NCBI RefSeq assembly: GCF_025685415.1
Contig: NZ_JAGSYB010000001.1
Coordinates: forward strand, 186,001 to 250,000
Length of the DNA: 64,000 nucleotides
Direction: 5' to 3'
Source: Terriglobus aquaticus
Lineage (GTDB): Bacteria > Acidobacteriota > Terriglobia > Terriglobales > Acidobacteriaceae
Part shown: piece after piece, positions 22,744 to 28,677 of the stretch
How positions within the stretch are numbered: position 1 is the stretch's first letter
Layout of the letters: the number at the start of each line of letters is the position of its first letter
Translations under genes and position numbers: made by a program
Notes under the pieces: model-generated
Seen by the model: the letters and a program-made list of their open reading frames with translations, nothing else
The model's database searches: none
What the model was told of the DNA's origin: nothing

Positions 22744-23820
22744 ATGGCAGCTTCCTTTCAGGACGATGCGGCGCTTTCGCAGCGGCAGCGGGCGATTCTG
22801 ACCGCGATCGTGGAGCAGTACGTTCAGAGCGGCGAGCCAGTGGCATCGCAGGGGCTGGCGGCGGCGAACGGCCTCAGCTCGGCGACGATCCGCAACGTCA
22901 TGGCGGAGTTGGTGGACGCCGGGTACCTGGAGCAGCCACACACCTCGGCTGGCCGGGTGCCGACCGCGCGGGCGTTTCGGCTGCACGTGGAGCAGTTGCG
23001 AGGTGGCAACCGGATTGCGCCGGCAATGCTTGCTGCACAGTCGCGGAGCACGATCGAGGCTCGATTGCAGGGCATGAGCGGCGAGGCCTTTCTGGAGCGG
23101 ACGTCGCAGGTGCTGGCGGGCCTGTCTCGGGGTGTGGGCGTGGCCATGGCGACCCTGCAGCGCAACGATCCCATGGAGCATGTGCACTTCCAACGGCTGG
23201 CGACGCGGAGAGTGCTGGCCGTGGTGGTTACGCGGTCAGGAATGGTGCGGGATCGCGTGCTTACGCTGGAGCAGGATCTGCAGGGCAAGGATCTTGAAGC
23301 TGCGGCGCGCTATCTGAATGAACAGTTCCGCGGCTGGACCGTGGAAGCGATTCGTGCGGAGATTGCGCGGCGTGCTGCAACGGAGCGCGACGCGTACCAG
23401 CGGATGCGTGCCGCGGCCGAAGAGCTGTGGACCGCGACGGTGAAGGATGCTGCGCCGGCGCACACGGTGTTTGTGGAAGGCGTGAGCAATCTGCTGGCGG
23501 AATCGGTGGACCGCGGCCGTCTGCGCGAGATGCTGGCTGCGCTGGAGGCCAAGGAGCGCGTGATGACGTTGTTGCACGCGTACCTGGGCGTAGAGCATGC
23601 GCGCGCGATTGCCAGCGATTCGGTTCGCGTGGTGTTTGACATGGAGGCACATGCGCCGGAGATGCAGGGGCTGGTGCTGGTAGCGGCGCCCGCGCTGAGT
23701 GCCGGTGCCCAGATGGGCGCGGTGGGAGTGATCGGCCCGCAGCGCATGGACTACGAAGCAACGATCAATGCAGTGCAGTACGTGGCGCAGTTGTTTGCGG
23801 AAACGCAACAGCCGATGTAG
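22744..23820 (+). CDS. hrcA: Heat-inducible transcription repressor HrcA
   Basis: A 358-residue repressor that binds CIRCE operators of chaperone genes and is kept active by GroEL. The N-terminal winged helix shows LSQRQRAILTAIVEQYVQSGEPVASQGL broken into ILTAIVEQYVQSGEPV and the recognition helix SSATIRNVMAELVDAGYLEQPHTSAGR, a diagnostic HrcA motif (read as SSATIRNVMAEL plus EQPHTSAGRVPT). The GAF-like domain ends in VGVIGPQRMDYEATINAV, the usual HrcA C-terminus. It is first in hrcA-grpE-dnaJ. Confidence 0.97.
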   Translation: MAASFQDDAALSQRQRAILTAIVEQYVQSGEPVASQGLAAANGLSSATIRNVMAELVDAGYLEQPHTSAGRVPTARAFRLHVEQLRGGNRIAPAMLAAQSRSTIEARLQGMSGEAFLERTSQVLAGLSRGVGVAMATLQRNDPMEHVHFQRLATRRVLAVVVTRSGMVRDRVLTLEQDLQGKDLEAAARYLNEQFRGWTVEAIRAEIARRAATERDAYQRMRAAAEELWTATVKDAAPAHTVFVEGVSNLLAESVDRGRLREMLAALEAKERVMTLLHAYLGVEHARAIASDSVRVVFDMEAHAPEMQGLVLVAAPALSAGAQMGAVGVIGPQRMDYEATINAVQYVAQLFAETQQPM

Positions 23821-23958
23821 GTGCGGACCCGGCAGCAAGACCGCGTGATTGCGGCGGGCGCCCGCGATGGTCTCGAGGTTCGAGTACTCCCGAGTCGGTT
23901 GGTCACAAAGGCGGGTAGTGGTTTGAAGATTCAGGATCGTTACAGAAGGTGGATGGGC

Positions 23959-24528
23959 ATGAACGAAGTGAATGAGCCGGTGATTGCGGCAGACGAAGAA
24001 CTGCAGGGTGCGGTGGAGGGCGAGGCGATGGACGCGGGTTCCGCGGCCGAGGCGCCTACCGTCACAGAGGCTGAGTATGAACAGGTAAAGCGCGAACGCG
24101 ACCAGTTGCTGGACCGCATCGCCCGGTTGCAGGCCGAGTTCGAGAACGCGCGCCGGCGCGAGGCGAAGGAGCGCATGGAGTTCCGCGACTACGCCCTGGG
24201 GCAGGCCGCCGAAGGCTTGCTGCCGGTGCTGGACAATTTTGATTTGGCGCTGAAGTCGAACGGATCGCCCGAGCAGTTCCGCGCGGGCGTGGACCTGATC
24301 GCGAAGCAGTTGGATGAAGCGGTGCGCGGGCTGGGTCTGACTCATGTTGAGACCGTGGGTACCCAGTTCGATCCGCACGTGCATGAAGCGCTGGGCCAGG
24401 TAGAGACGGCCGAGTTTCCGGATGGTGCGGTTGTTCAGGAAATTCGCCGTGGGTACAAGGTGAAGGATCGTCTCTTGCGTCCTGCGCTGGTGCAGGTAGC
24501 ACGTAATTCGCAGCAGCGAGAAGCGTAA
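23959..24528 (+). CDS. grpE: Nucleotide exchange factor GrpE
   Basis: About 189 residues. GrpE releases ADP from DnaK. A long acidic N-terminus leads to a coiled-coil region (LLDRIARLQAEFENARRR), followed by LLPVLDNFDLAL and the beta-wing domain FDPHVHEALGQVE, VVQEIRRGYKVKDRLLRPALVQVA. ATG 23959 is preferred: AAGGTGG lies 6 nt upstream. A GTG right after the hrcA stop (23821) is also in frame but would add 46 residues unlike GrpE. dnaJ follows. Confidence 0.95.
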   Translation: MNEVNEPVIAADEELQGAVEGEAMDAGSAAEAPTVTEAEYEQVKRERDQLLDRIARLQAEFENARRREAKERMEFRDYALGQAAEGLLPVLDNFDLALKSNGSPEQFRAGVDLIAKQLDEAVRGLGLTHVETVGTQFDPHVHEALGQVETAEFPDGAVVQEIRRGYKVKDRLLRPALVQVARNSQQREA

Positions 24529-24553
24529 GGAGCAGACTTTGGCGGGAGCAACG

Positions 24554-25699
24554 ATGAAGGCGGATTACTACGAGGTGCTTTCGGTCACCCGGACCGCGTC
24601 AGACAGCGAGATCAAGACGGCATATCGCAAGCTGGCGATGCAGTACCATCCGGATCGCAACCCTGGCGATCACACGGCGGAAGAGAAGTTCAAGGAGTGC
24701 TCCGAGGCCTACGCCGTGTTGAGCGATCCGCAGAAACGTGCGGCGTATGACCGCTACGGTCACGCGGGTGTTGGCGGGCCGGCCAGCGGCGGAGCGGGCG
24801 GAGGATTTCCCGGCGGCTTCGGTGGTTTCAGTGGCAATCCGCAGGACCTGGGCGACATCTTTGGCGACATCTTTGGCGAGATGTTCAACATGGGTGGCGC
24901 TGGTGGCCGGCGTCAGTCGCGCCAACAGCGCGGCCGCGATCTTCGCTACGACATGACGCTCGAGTTTGAGGAGTCTGTGTTTGGCATGGAGCGCGAGATC
25001 AAGGTGAAGCGCGCGGAAGCCTGCACCGACTGCCGCGGAACGGGCTCGGCGAATGGCAAACAGCCGCAGACGTGTTCGCAGTGCCGCGGCGCCGGCCAGG
25101 TGCGTTTTCAGCAGGGCTTCTTCAGTGTTGCGAAGACCTGCCCCAAGTGCGAGGGCAGCGGTGTGCAGATCACTGATCCTTGCCCGGTGTGCCGCGGCGA
25201 GTCGCGAGTGCAGCGCGAGCACACACTGAACGTGAAGGTGCCCGCAGGCGTCGAGGACGGAACACGCATTCGCTACCAGGGCGAGGGCGAGGCCGGCAAG
25301 TTTGAAGGCCCGGCTGGCGACCTCTACGTGGTGCTTGCGGTGAAGCCGCACAAGGTGTTCACGCGGGATGGCGATGATCTGCACTGCGTTGTGCCGATCA
25401 GCTACACGCAGGCGGCGCTGGGTGACGAGCTGGAGATTGCCACGCTGGAAGGCCCAGCGGTGCTGAAGGTGCCGGACGGAACGCAGAGCGGGAAGACGTT
25501 TAAGCTGCGCGGAAAAGGTGTGCCACACCTGAATTCGAATGGTAAGGGCGACCTGGTGGTGGAGGTTCGCGTGCAGACGCCGACCAAGCTGAACAAGCAG
25601 CAGAGAGATCTGCTACGGCAGTTGGGCGAGCTCAGTTCGGTCGAGAACACTCCGCAGTCGCACGGCATTATGGACCGTGTGAAGGAGATGTTCAGCTAG
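24554..25699 (+). CDS. dnaJ: Chaperone protein DnaJ
   Basis: About 381 residues, class I Hsp40, which stimulates DnaK ATPase and binds unfolded clients. J domain DYYEVLSVTRTASDSEIK with HPD in QYHPDRNPG; a Gly/Phe-rich linker (GGGFPGGFGGFSG); four zinc modules ACTDCRGTG, TCSQCRGAG, TCPKCEGSG and PCPVCRGES, the last lacking the final Gly of CxxCxGxG. A C-terminal substrate and dimer domain follows. ATG 24554 has GGGAG 5 nt upstream; a TTG at 24539 with AAGGAG is an alternative. dnaK is not between grpE and dnaJ. Confidence 0.96.
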   Translation: MKADYYEVLSVTRTASDSEIKTAYRKLAMQYHPDRNPGDHTAEEKFKECSEAYAVLSDPQKRAAYDRYGHAGVGGPASGGAGGGFPGGFGGFSGNPQDLGDIFGDIFGEMFNMGGAGGRRQSRQQRGRDLRYDMTLEFEESVFGMEREIKVKRAEACTDCRGTGSANGKQPQTCSQCRGAGQVRFQQGFFSVAKTCPKCEGSGVQITDPCPVCRGESRVQREHTLNVKVPAGVEDGTRIRYQGEGEAGKFEGPAGDLYVVLAVKPHKVFTRDGDDLHCVVPISYTQAALGDELEIATLEGPAVLKVPDGTQSGKTFKLRGKGVPHLNSNGKGDLVVEVRVQTPTKLNKQQRDLLRQLGELSSVENTPQSHGIMDRVKEMFS

Positions 25700-25705
25700 G
25701 TCGGC

Positions 25706-25752
25706 GAGTCAGCGAGTCGGCGAGTGCGGGATGCTCGTTTGCTCGCTGATTT
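25706..25752 (+). terminator. Probable terminator after dnaJ
   Basis: The repeat GTCGGCGAGT occurs twice just after the stop codon; TCAGCGAG (25709-25716) pairs with CTCGCTGA (25742-25749) and is followed by TTTTGCTT. The loop is long, so strength is uncertain. Confidence 0.45.
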
Positions 25753-25777
25753 TGCTTGCGCTGTTTTGTGGCTGGGC

Positions 25778-26194
25778 CTAGCGGCCTCTGCCGTATTGCG
25801 ACGGCCGGATAATGTGGAATCGCGGGTCGCGCAGGATGAGCGCAACCCAGACGACCACTGCAAACAGCACGGGAACGGGCCAGTTGGACTGGCCCGCACG
25901 TGCGTGGGTCGCCACGGCGCCTCCGAAGAAACTTGTGAACAGAATTGCCCCGAGCGCGGCGGTGCGCGGGATCAGGAAGAAGACGACGCAGAGAATCTCC
26001 GCGATGCCCATGGCGGTGACGGCGCTCGCCGGAAAACCCATCTTCGCCGCGCCATCGACGACGAACTTTGCTCCGCGCAGAGCGTTGATGCCTCCGCTGC
26101 CGATGAAGACCGCGATGAGTGCGCTAAGAATCCAGCCAGTCAGGCGGGCTGCCTTGCTGGGCCGATTGGGGTGAACTGCTTCGCTAACGGACAT
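25778..26194 (-). CDS. DoxX-like membrane protein
   Basis: A 138-residue integral membrane protein with four hydrophobic helices (WILSALIAVFIGSGGINAL, AVTAMGIAEILCVVFFLIP, AALGAILFTSFFGGAVATHA, WPVPVLFAVVVWVALIL). The pattern KMGFPASAVTAMGIAEI and TAALGAILFTSFFGGAVATHAR fits DoxX-like (DUF-type) families. Function is unknown; some DoxX relatives take part in redox or thiol chemistry at the membrane. It stands 15 bp upstream of rsmE on the same strand... the rsmE stop lies beyond its start, so the two genes are convergent-order neighbours with rsmE transcribed toward it. Confidence 0.75.
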   Translation of the reverse strand: MSVSEAVHPNRPSKAARLTGWILSALIAVFIGSGGINALRGAKFVVDGAAKMGFPASAVTAMGIAEILCVVFFLIPRTAALGAILFTSFFGGAVATHARAGQSNWPVPVLFAVVVWVALILRDPRFHIIRPSQYGRGR

Positions 26195-26209: not shown

Positions 26210-26932
26210 TCAGGTGAGGTGCGCACCCGTGATCGCCAGAGCCGCTATCGCCGCGGTCTCGGCTCGAAGGATGCGCGGCCCCAACGTTACATGCTGCCAG
26301 CCTTCGTCGGAGAACTTTTTCATCTCGTCCGCGGTCCATCCGCCCTCCGGGCCAATGGCGAGAGCGATCGCCTGTTCTGCGTCGGAGGTCGCCAGCGCAT
26401 TTCGTAGCGTGTTCTGTTCTTCGGTTTCTGCCAGGAGAATGCGACGCGCAGCGTCAACCGTGGCTAAGGCTGCGGCGAGTGGCTGGGCATCGTCGATGCG
26501 AGGCACGTCGGAGCGGCGAGACTGCTGCGCTGCCTCGTGTGCGATGCGGCGCCAGCGTTCCACGCGTTTTGCCGACGCCTGCGCCAGGTGCTTCTCGGTC
26601 CGGCGCGCGAGGACGGGCGTGATGCGCGAGACGCCGAGCTCCGTCGCCTTTTCGATCGCCCATTCGAGGTGATCGAACTTGAAGACAGCGATCAGCAAGT
26701 GAATGGGAAGAGCGTTGTCGACTTCGCGCTCTTCGTGCAGAGCGAACGTGACCTGATCGTCGCGAACCGCGGTCACCTCGGCGCGATGCAGAAATCCGCC
26801 GGCGACCACGTCGAAGATCTGCCCGGGCTGAGCACGCAACACGCGCGCGAGGTGCGCTGCCTGGTCGCCCGTGAGAGCGGCGGAGGTGCGTTCGTCATTC
26901 CAGGTGTCAGCGATCCAACGGCGGCGAGTCAT
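26210..26932 (-). CDS. rsmE: 16S rRNA m3U1498 methyltransferase
   Basis: About 240 residues, SPOUT-class enzyme that methylates N3 of U1498 in 16S rRNA using AdoMet. The N-terminal PUA-like part starts TRRRWIADTW and contains DQAAHLARVLRAQPGQIFDVV. The SPOUT knot shows KATELGVSRITPVLARRTEK, AIALAIGPEGGWTADEMKKF and LGPRILRAETAAIAAL, the last two being the AdoMet-binding knot motifs. ATG 26932 matches the usual N-terminus; a TTG further upstream (27130) would add 66 unrelated residues. The transcript probably carries a 200-nt leader (see 27000-27132). The DoxX-like gene begins 15 bp after its stop. Confidence 0.94.
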   Translation of the reverse strand: MTRRRWIADTWNDERTSAALTGDQAAHLARVLRAQPGQIFDVVAGGFLHRAEVTAVRDDQVTFALHEEREVDNALPIHLLIAVFKFDHLEWAIEKATELGVSRITPVLARRTEKHLAQASAKRVERWRRIAHEAAQQSRRSDVPRIDDAQPLAAALATVDAARRILLAETEEQNTLRNALATSDAEQAIALAIGPEGGWTADEMKKFSDEGWQHVTLGPRILRAETAAIAALAITGAHLT

Positions 26933-26999
26933 GCAGTTGAGTTTGGCAGTGCCGTGGTGGGACGAGCAAGTGTTCACCGGCTGAGCGGGTGATGGAGGA

Positions 27000-27132
27000 A
27001 AGCAAGAAGGGGAAGCGCTGAGCGCTTCCCCTTGTGAGACTTGCTTTGCCTTGCGTCGCGGTCTTTGCCACCGCTTCGCATTGTGTCCGTCTACTCTCCC
27101 TGACTGAGTACGGCGCGTTGCTAAGAGCAACT
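27000..27132 (-). ncRNA. Candidate small RNA or structured leader upstream of rsmE
   Basis: A transcript beginning about 7 nt after the strong promoter at 27139-27167 would start near 27132. Its 5' end forms a hairpin GTTGC-TCTTA-GCAAC (about 27117-27131). Its 3' end is a perfect 13-bp inverted repeat (27007-27019 with 27021-27033) followed on this strand by CTTGCTTTCC, a weak T-rich tail. The stretch between is purine-rich with GGTGGCAAAGACCGCGACG. No open frame here has a ribosome-binding site. It could be a free RNA of about 130 nt or an attenuator/leader of rsmE. I match it to no known family. Confidence 0.35.
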
Positions 27133-27138
27133 ATCGAA

Positions 27139-27167
27139 TGTATAGAGATGTGCGCGGCGAGTGTCAA
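27139..27167 (-). promoter_or_regulatory. Strong sigma70-type promoter
   Basis: On the minus strand: -35 TTGACA (27167-27162), exactly 17 nt spacer, -10 TATACA (27144-27139). This is one base from the full consensus, exceptional for a genome of about 62% G+C. It points toward the candidate RNA and rsmE. Confidence 0.65.
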
Positions 27168-27187
27168 CAAAAAAGTTGACTACTCGC
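27157..27187. repeat. Operator-like palindrome over the -35 element
   Basis: GTCAAC-A6-GTTGAC (27163-27180) extends outward to GCGAGT (27157-27162) and ACTCGC (27182-27187) with one extra T on the right. The arms total 12 bp each. Because it covers the -35 hexamer, a bound dimeric regulator would block the promoter. The regulator is unknown. Confidence 0.5.
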
Positions 27188-27243: not shown

Positions 27244-28677
27244 TCAGCATTCGATGACGTTCAGCGCGAGACCGGCGAGCGAGGTTTCCTTGTATCGCGA
27301 TTGCATGTCGAGACCGGTCTGATACATGGTGCGAATCACTTGATCGAGCGAGACCTTGTGGTCGTCCGCCTCGTGCATCGCCATGCGCGTTGCGTTCACC
27401 GCCTTTACCGCACCCATTGCGTTGCGCTCGATGCACGGGATCTGCACGAGGCCACCGATGGGATCGCACGTCATGCCCAGGTTGTGCTCCATTGCGATTT
27501 CTGCGGCATGCTCCACCTGTGCGTTCGATCCGCCTAGTGCTGCGACCAAACCGCCCGCCGCCATAGAGCACGCGACGCCCACTTCGCCCTGGCAACCCAC
27601 CTCTGCGCCGCTGATGCTGGCGTTCTCTTTGTAGAGGATTCCGATTGCCGCAGCGGTGAGGAAGTAGCGGATCAGGCCTGCTTCATCGGCACCGCTGACG
27701 TAATCGCGGTAGTAGCGCGCGATGGCGGGAATCACGCCGGCTGCGCCGTTCGTCGGCGCGGTCACCACGCGTCCGCCGGCAGCGTTCTCTTCGTTGACCG
27801 CCATCGCAAACACGGTGACCCAGTCCAGCGGAGCGAGCGGGTCCGAGGATCCGATGGAGCGCAAGCGTTCCGAAAGGCGAGGCGCTCGCCGGCGCACGTT
27901 CAATCCGCCGGGCAGGACACCTGCGGTGGCGATGCCGCGCTCGATGCAATCGAACATCACGTCGGCGATGGCGAGGATGCCGGCCGTGACCTCCACGCGC
28001 GGATTTGTGGCGGCAGTTTGGAGCGGTGGTCGGGGGATGATCGGATCGCCCAGTAGAGCGACCTCATTCTGCAGCATCAACTCGGCGATGCTGATCGAGC
28101 GTTCGCCGGCGATGCTGAGAAGTTCGGCTGCGCTACGAAACGGATGTGGCACCGCGCGCGTGGTGGGCGGTAAAGCCGATTCGTTTTGCGAGAAGTGTTC
28201 GGCCGTGACGATGAAGCCGCCGCCAATGGAGTAGAAGGTCTCTGCGGCGATCAGATCTGCACGATCGTCAAAGGCGGAGAGGCGCAGGCCGTTGGGATGG
28301 GTTGCGTGGTCCGCGTCCGGATACATCTGGTCGCGATGGAAGAGGAGATCGCTGTTCCGCGAGAACGCGATGGCGTGGTCGCCTGCGAACAGAAGAGAGC
28401 CGGAAGCCACACGCTGCAGCGCGTCCTGTTGCTGCTGCGGAGTGATGGTGTCGGGCGCATAGCCGTGCAGGCCCTGCAGGATTGCCGTGTCGGTGCCGTG
28501 GCCGATGCCCGTGAGTGCAAGCGAACCGTACAGGTCCACCTGGACGCGTGCCACGCTTGCCAGCATGCGGGAACGTCCGAGTCCGTGGACAAAAGAAAGC
28601 GCCGCGCGCATGGGACCAACCGTGTGAGAACTGGAAGGGCCGATACCGATTTTGAACAGCTCAAAGAGGCTCGTCAC
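27244..28677 (-). CDS. sdaA: L-serine ammonia-lyase (single-chain, Fe-S)
   Basis: A 477-residue iron-sulfur L-serine dehydratase that converts serine to pyruvate and ammonia. N-terminal FELFKIGIGPSSSHTVGPMRAA is diagnostic; the alpha domain has APTNGAAGVIPAIARYY, ENASISGAEVGCQGEVGVACSMAA and MEHNLGMTCDPIGGLVQIPCIERN, which hold the three cluster cysteines. It ends TGLDMQSRYKETSLAGLALN, typical of the family. The single chain is slightly longer than E. coli SdaA (454). It is divergent from the ComM-like gene across about 105 bp. Confidence 0.96.
   Translation of the reverse strand: MTSLFELFKIGIGPSSSHTVGPMRAALSFVHGLGRSRMLASVARVQVDLYGSLALTGIGHGTDTAILQGLHGYAPDTITPQQQQDALQRVASGSLLFAGDHAIAFSRNSDLLFHRDQMYPDADHATHPNGLRLSAFDDRADLIAAETFYSIGGGFIVTAEHFSQNESALPPTTRAVPHPFRSAAELLSIAGERSISIAELMLQNEVALLGDPIIPRPPLQTAATNPRVEVTAGILAIADVMFDCIERGIATAGVLPGGLNVRRRAPRLSERLRSIGSSDPLAPLDWVTVFAMAVNEENAAGGRVVTAPTNGAAGVIPAIARYYRDYVSGADEAGLIRYFLTAAAIGILYKENASISGAEVGCQGEVGVACSMAAGGLVAALGGSNAQVEHAAEIAMEHNLGMTCDPIGGLVQIPCIERNAMGAVKAVNATRMAMHEADDHKVSLDQVIRTMYQTGLDMQSRYKETSLAGLALNVIEC

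Follow-up and report, generated by a model that had tools for sequence, protein, structure and literature searches.

A candidate small RNA unit beside rsmE in Terriglobus aquaticus and its counterpart, a Lys/Ala mini-gene, in other Acidobacteriaceae

Promoter and hairpins at the locus

The element described here lies on the minus strand of the window, by which we mean the whole 64,000-nucleotide stretch of Terriglobus aquaticus DNA that was analysed. Its neighbours, recognised as open reading frames (ORFs) and from the loci of relatives, are on the same strand: upstream a gene at 27244..28677, presumably encoding an sdaA-like L-serine dehydratase, and downstream an ORF at 26210..26932, which, like the preliminary description of this DNA, we take to be rsmE. 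Between them stands a promoter with a -35 box TTGACA (27162..27167) and a -10 box TATACA (27139..27144) separated by a 17-nt spacer. The arrangement TTGACA-N17-TATACA that had been described on this strand is thus present (27167-27139), and it is conserved. Among 116 distinct homologous elements, the -35 box reads TTGACA in 96 and TTGACT in 20 (the search pattern behind this tally demanded TTGAC), and the 17-nt spacer is kept in 115. Directly upstream of the -35 box is a T-tract, ACTTTTTTG (27168..27176, minus strand), which resembles an UP element and may act as one; a T-tract stands at the same place in the homologues listed. Judging from the spacing, transcription is expected to start at the A at 27132 on the minus strand, 7 nt after the -10 box, and this region is alike across homologues. 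With one mismatch permitted, the promoter pattern matched once in the 64-kb window (0.06 matches expected). A simpler sigma-70 scan missed the promoter, because TATACA lacks the final T demanded there.

When the promoter was combined with the hairpin that follows it, the pattern was found in 135 of 300 genomes of the family Acidobacteriaceae, as a single copy in each except one genome with two, and a reversed control pattern was found in none; known divergent forms, such as those of genomes G016, G017, and G063, are missed by this pattern. A stand-alone small unit with a strong, conserved promoter of its own, as had been proposed, is therefore well supported by the sequence. The regulation attributed to this promoter fared differently. 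The supposed operator, a 12+12-bp palindrome covering the -35 box, is in fact composed of two 6-bp arm pairs, GTCAAC/GTTGAC and GCGAGT/ACTCGC, that are 1 nt out of register (27157..27187), and its upstream GTCAA arm occurs in just 1 of the 116 distinct elements, namely that of the window itself. Since the palindrome is not conserved, the qualification of the promoter as regulated is unsupported.

The predicted RNA begins with a 6-bp hairpin, P1 (27117..27131, minus strand; GUUGCU-CUU-AGCAAC, in DNA GTTGCT/AGCAAC), which agrees with the 5' hairpin reported just past the expected start (27131-27117). The full 6/6 stem is found in 46 of the 116 elements, against a mean of 6.2 and a maximum of 14 in shuffled sequences; at 5/6 pairs the signal is weak (109/116 versus a shuffled mean of 52.5, largest 65), and only the 6/6 tally was counted. 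Further along the minus strand, hairpin P2 (27087..27113) presents CAGGGAGAGU, and its GGGAGAG (27094-27100) is the counterpart of the Shine-Dalgarno sequence of ORF-bearing relatives. Hairpin P3 (27058..27074; GCGGU-GGCAAAG-ACCGC, minus strand) occupies the place where the reading frame once stood, and the linker AAGGCAAAGCAA (27041..27052, minus strand) keeps a GGCAA motif ahead of the 3' stem. The 3' hairpin, AAGGGGAAGCGCU-C-AGCGCUUCCCCUU (27007..27033, minus strand), is a perfect 13+13-bp stem with 1 nt between its arms, lengthened by pairing of 26999-27006 with 27040-27047. The 13-bp stem of the preliminary description (27033-27007) is therefore real. It may serve as a terminator, although the U run downstream is interrupted (CTTGCTTTCC) and terminator-like sites are hardly commoner in 19 kb than in shuffled sequence (15 found versus 12.7 expected, sd 3.4). 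The 138-nt RNA has a predicted folding energy of -62.6 kcal/mol (z = -5.76).

Two features of the surroundings may be mentioned. The rsmE frame is open upstream through the RNA to a TTG at 27130, giving a 306-aa ORF (26210-27130, minus strand), and gene callers could mis-start rsmE at this TTG. Near the element, on the plus strand, is what we take to be an hrcA-grpE-dnaJ-like cluster (22744-26194), together with a presumably DoxX-like frame on the minus strand (25778-26194).

Conservation of the element in Terriglobus

BLASTN recovered the region in 14 of 19 Terriglobus genomes, that of the window included. A covariance model built on 13 of these 14 sequences (L010, in which the 3' stem is not intact, was omitted) placed the element in 19/19 Terriglobus genomes, with a weakest best match of E 2.6e-8; T. 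roseus DSM 18391 (NC_018014.1) is among the carriers. Over 13 Terriglobus loci of the main type, mean pairwise identity is 27% in the upstream flank, 89% in the -35 region, 49% in the spacer, and 89% in the -10 region; within the RNA it is 55% for P1, 76% for P2, 87% for P3, 50% for the linker, and 84% for the 3' stem, and it returns to 27% in the downstream flank. Judged by these comparisons, the element is not a product of chance.

The hairpins also left a trace in the pattern of substitutions. Standard pairs fill 93.7% of the cells of the alignment, against 34-60% for slid structures, and the covariation score (0.177) was reached in none of 500 shuffles (mean 0.121, sd 0.010). The number of cells with changes on both sides likewise lay above all 500 shuffles, whereas the four pairs with changes on both sides were matched by 40 of the 500. 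Such changes occur only in P1 (at 2 of 4 pairs) and at the base of the 3' stem; for P2 and P3 the support comes from one-sided changes and invariance. The alignment thus indicates a conserved secondary structure, weakly so for P2 and P3. Hairpins and palindrome had both been put forward as features that relatives should share, and it is the hairpins that are shared, while the palindrome is not.

Beyond the genus, the model run at E up to 1 gave matches in 95 of 150 family genomes, a count that we left unused because many weak matches cover the 3' stem only. Among the loci behind these weak matches, the promoter-leader pattern was not seen in L126, L130, L131, L133, L134, L135, and L136, and L127 is an ORF-bearing form with a different -10 box.

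A Lys/Ala mini-gene in related genera and the loss of its frame

In 22 other genera, the shared promoter, the 5' hairpin, a Shine-Dalgarno sequence AGGGAGAATAG or a near variant, and the 3' hairpin enclose a small frame, with an ATG 5-9 nt after AGGGAGAATAG; one example of the peptide is MATKKAAKKPAKKAAKKAAKKK. The frame is present in 87 of the 116 distinct elements (tallied by sequence and not by species) and specifies 13-37 residues, of which 48.2% are Lys and 34.6% are Ala. Comparing frames of the same length, we counted 2613, 2250, and 7829 pairwise differences at codon positions 1, 2, and 3, and one of the peptides is encoded by 11 distinct nucleotide sequences. By this codon-position pattern, which is a mark of coding, the ORF of the relatives reads as a coding sequence. 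The earlier statement that no protein gene explains the locus accordingly holds for this genome and fails for the family, in which related genera carry a frame for a candidate Lys/Ala mini-protein. An exact Shine-Dalgarno-ATG pattern, which would miss divergent forms, was found in 27 of 396 genomes across the phylum, all of them among the 44 Acidobacteriaceae and none among the 352 others. Between the stop codon and the 3' stem, 70 of the 87 ORF-bearing elements carry GGCAA (shuffled mean 3.4), and, as read by eye, part of this stretch can pair with the GUGUUU tail. Short peptides of 13-17 residues, mostly Lys, such as MATKKKKAKKKKH, are encoded at L086-L088, L090, L092, L119, L124, and L132. 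From its composition, which resembles a histone-H1 tail, the peptide is probably a nucleic-acid binder. Comparison of the peptides tried with Pfam, NCBIfam, and PDB sequences gave no match, a result that means little for such low-complexity sequence.

The remaining 29 of the 116 elements have no ORF. These comprise 13 elements of the main Terriglobus type; four (L022, L024, L057, and L069) that make up a second type in this genus and lack P3; eleven Bryocella/Granulicella-like ones, drawn from genus g64 and from named records; and L060, which comes from genome G188 of another genus. In elements without the start codon, promoter and RNA ends are kept while the frame is eroded. An ATGGC start downstream of the GGGAGA motif is absent from all 19 Terriglobus genomes, including those of the last two loci, L008 and L068. 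Comparison by eye with ORF-bearing neighbours, in which the start is ATGGCAACCAAG, showed ACG at this position in 10 of the 13 main-type elements, GAG-GCG in L022, L024, and L069, and AGG in G188; in the g64 type (7 of 11 elements compared), ACGCAACCAAG or something close to it stands in its place. No ATG, GTG, or TTG lies between GGGAG and the 3' stem in any of the 11 Bryocella/Granulicella-like elements. These ORF-less elements have three GGCAA repeats within 47-49 nt (L026, L030, L031, L059, L108, L137-L140, and L149) or four (L145).

To place these states on a phylogeny, they were assigned by hand from the loci to the 85 rows of an rsmE tree. The deepest branches of the tree are ORF-bearing rows, at least three changes of state are required, and a 48-row clade (SH-aLRT 98) holds every ORF-less row together with 17 ORF-bearing rows of genus g34. 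Judging from this distribution, the sampled family probably started out with the mini-gene and then lost it at least twice, or lost it and regained it; because the tree leaves 38 of its 82 inner branches open, the count of losses is uncertain.

We also considered that the peptide gene might have moved elsewhere in Terriglobus. The pattern ATGGCNNNNAARAARNNNNNNAARAAR, which would miss a copy lacking it, occurs at 18 places in 10 of the 19 Terriglobus genomes and at none in the genome of the window. Seventeen of these places are tails of larger proteins and the last, L205 with 27 aa, is a different sequence, and a relocated copy carrying this pattern was therefore rejected. At position 1501 of L205 (G009), this separate basic frame of 27 aa, MAKKKSAKKKTFNRKHPRKADGTFKKK, follows GGAAGGAGG.

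Interpretation and rival explanations

Conservation of the element, its gene neighbourhood, and the presence and loss of the frame are direct observations. In several lineages the unit has survived the loss of its frame with promoter, 5' hairpin, and 3' stem unimpaired, and this is most simply explained by some activity of the RNA itself. We favour the reading, with a probability of roughly 60%, that a mini-mRNA turned into a small RNA or had been one as well all along. The locus would be a small transcription unit of the Acidobacteriaceae in its own right, with a sigma-70 promoter, a start near 27132, a 5' hairpin, a length of ~130 nt, and a 3' hairpin, and in 22 genera it would serve as a tiny mRNA for the Lys/Ala peptide. 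In Terriglobus the unit would have lost its start codon and its frame would have decayed; in most species the old coding stretch would have turned into the conserved hairpin P3, and the unit would persist as a small RNA. Assuming that the unit is transcribed, the retained RNA may act as RNA, perhaps on other RNAs and possibly with Hfq, which is encoded in the genome (PF17209); the ancestral mRNA may already have had a role at the RNA level. The exposed GGGAGA and GGCAAAG loops are candidate handles for such action. Counted against this reading are the small number of pairs altered on both sides, the low identity of P1 and linker (55% and 50%), the absence of a clean U run, and the named records, in which 25 of 63 rsmE loci have no element nearby. 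A bolder version, which we hold as somewhat against the odds, is that of a bifunctional RNA of the Acidobacteriaceae that can do without its peptide half: loss of the start codon would have occurred perhaps 2-3 times independently, strong selection would have preserved promoter, 5' hairpin, and 3' element, and most Terriglobus would have gained a new conserved hairpin out of the old codons.

The unit could still be an mRNA in Terriglobus, with translation beginning at an unusual or displaced codon (ACG, the ATG at +12 to +19, or the GTG in GCGGUGGCA) and a different small basic peptide as its product, for instance MRSGGKGRNATRQS. Such a new peptide retains some probability in the main type because an ATG lies 12-19 nt after GGGAGA in 7 of its 13 distinct elements and a GTG in all 13; moreover, the Shine-Dalgarno-like GGGAGA is retained and the predicted products are basic. 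We nevertheless consider this unlikely, as the ATG is missing in 6 of the 13, T. roseus DSM 18391 included, the spacing of 12-19 nt compares with 5-9 in ORF-bearing relatives, and the listed frames extend into or beyond the 3' stem. It is more doubtful still that the promoter and hairpins linger without function in a decaying pseudogene. Frame remnants, GCGACAAGAACGGCGAAAAAG, are indeed visible in L022, L024, L068, and L069, but the element is kept in 19/19 Terriglobus genomes, its main parts are 76-89% identical between flanks at 27%, and P3, which lies outside the ORF-bearing form, is 87% identical.

The gene neighbourhood bears on two further explanations. An attenuator or leader of rsmE, the alternative named in the preliminary description, would fit the 30 of 42 loci (L019-L060, one per genome) at which rsmE lies downstream on the same strand, a link that also holds in Terriglobus. 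This idea is contradicted by three loci with convergent rsmE (L032, L033, and L039) and by nine, all of genus g34, with no rsmE within 1.5 kb. In all 18 g34 genomes queried rsmE is present and apart from the unit, in 12 on the same contig at 60.6 kb to 2.8 Mb and in 6 on a different contig, which makes a leader function highly improbable. In the named records, an element was found within up to 2.5 kb on each side of 38 of 63 rsmE loci; some of the 25 loci without one are on short contigs. If the element were instead a signal by which the 3' end of sdaA is processed or terminated, and no unit of its own, this would suit the sdaA-like gene found upstream in 14/14 Terriglobus loci (L003-L016), but it has its own conserved promoter and no sdaA match lies within 1.5 kb at other loci, such as L026, L027, and L029; we give this explanation hardly any weight.

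Comparison with known families did not assign the RNA. At the Rfam gathering score it had no match, the sole match over the window being a tRNA elsewhere, and at E up to 10 there were ten weak matches, all below the gathering score (c-di-GMP-I reached 13.5 bits versus 35); membership of an Rfam family was therefore rejected. CsrA-sponge RNAs, namely CsrB/RsmZ, likewise have GGA in a hairpin loop, but CsrA (PF02599) was not found in this genome, in a search whose control matched in 3 of 14 known genomes, and a CsrA sponge was rejected. The listings returned by literature searches showed nothing on this RNA or on the peptide of its relatives; the string MATKKA matched, by title, only work on circRNA peptides.

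SgrS and SR1 are dual-function small RNAs. According to an excerpt of PMC8672173, VcdRP is another. The likeness to these three is a short transcript with a small frame; in the present case, by contrast, entire lineages have retained the unit without its frame, and the transcript, its action as RNA, and any targets are putative. Acido-1 (RF01686) and Acido-Lenti-1 (RF01687) are, like the present RNA, candidate noncoding RNA motifs of Acidobacteria (excerpt of PMC2864571), but neither was among its Rfam matches at the gathering score or at E up to 10. The kind of unit is itself already known, since small frames are common in bacterial sRNAs (excerpt of PMC5521070), and it is the coding-to-noncoding series that is new. 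With a strong promoter and no match in our Rfam, Pfam, and NCBIfam searches, this soil-bacterial unit provides candidate families of both a mini-protein and an RNA. On the bifunctional reading there would be a natural series from mini-mRNA to noncoding RNA inside one bacterial family. The question of how bacterial small RNAs arise from mRNAs becomes directly testable, because coding and noncoding states share promoter and ends in related genera.

The composition of the peptide, MATKKAAKK and so forth, is also that of histone-H1-tail-like Lys/Ala repeats seen in other Terriglobus genes, which encode larger proteins with the repeat as their tail, whereas here it makes up the whole product of 13-37 residues. 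At loci L200-L217, in other Terriglobus, Lys/Ala-rich MATKK tails are carried at the N-terminus by proteins that we take to be LigD-like and DUF6496-like.
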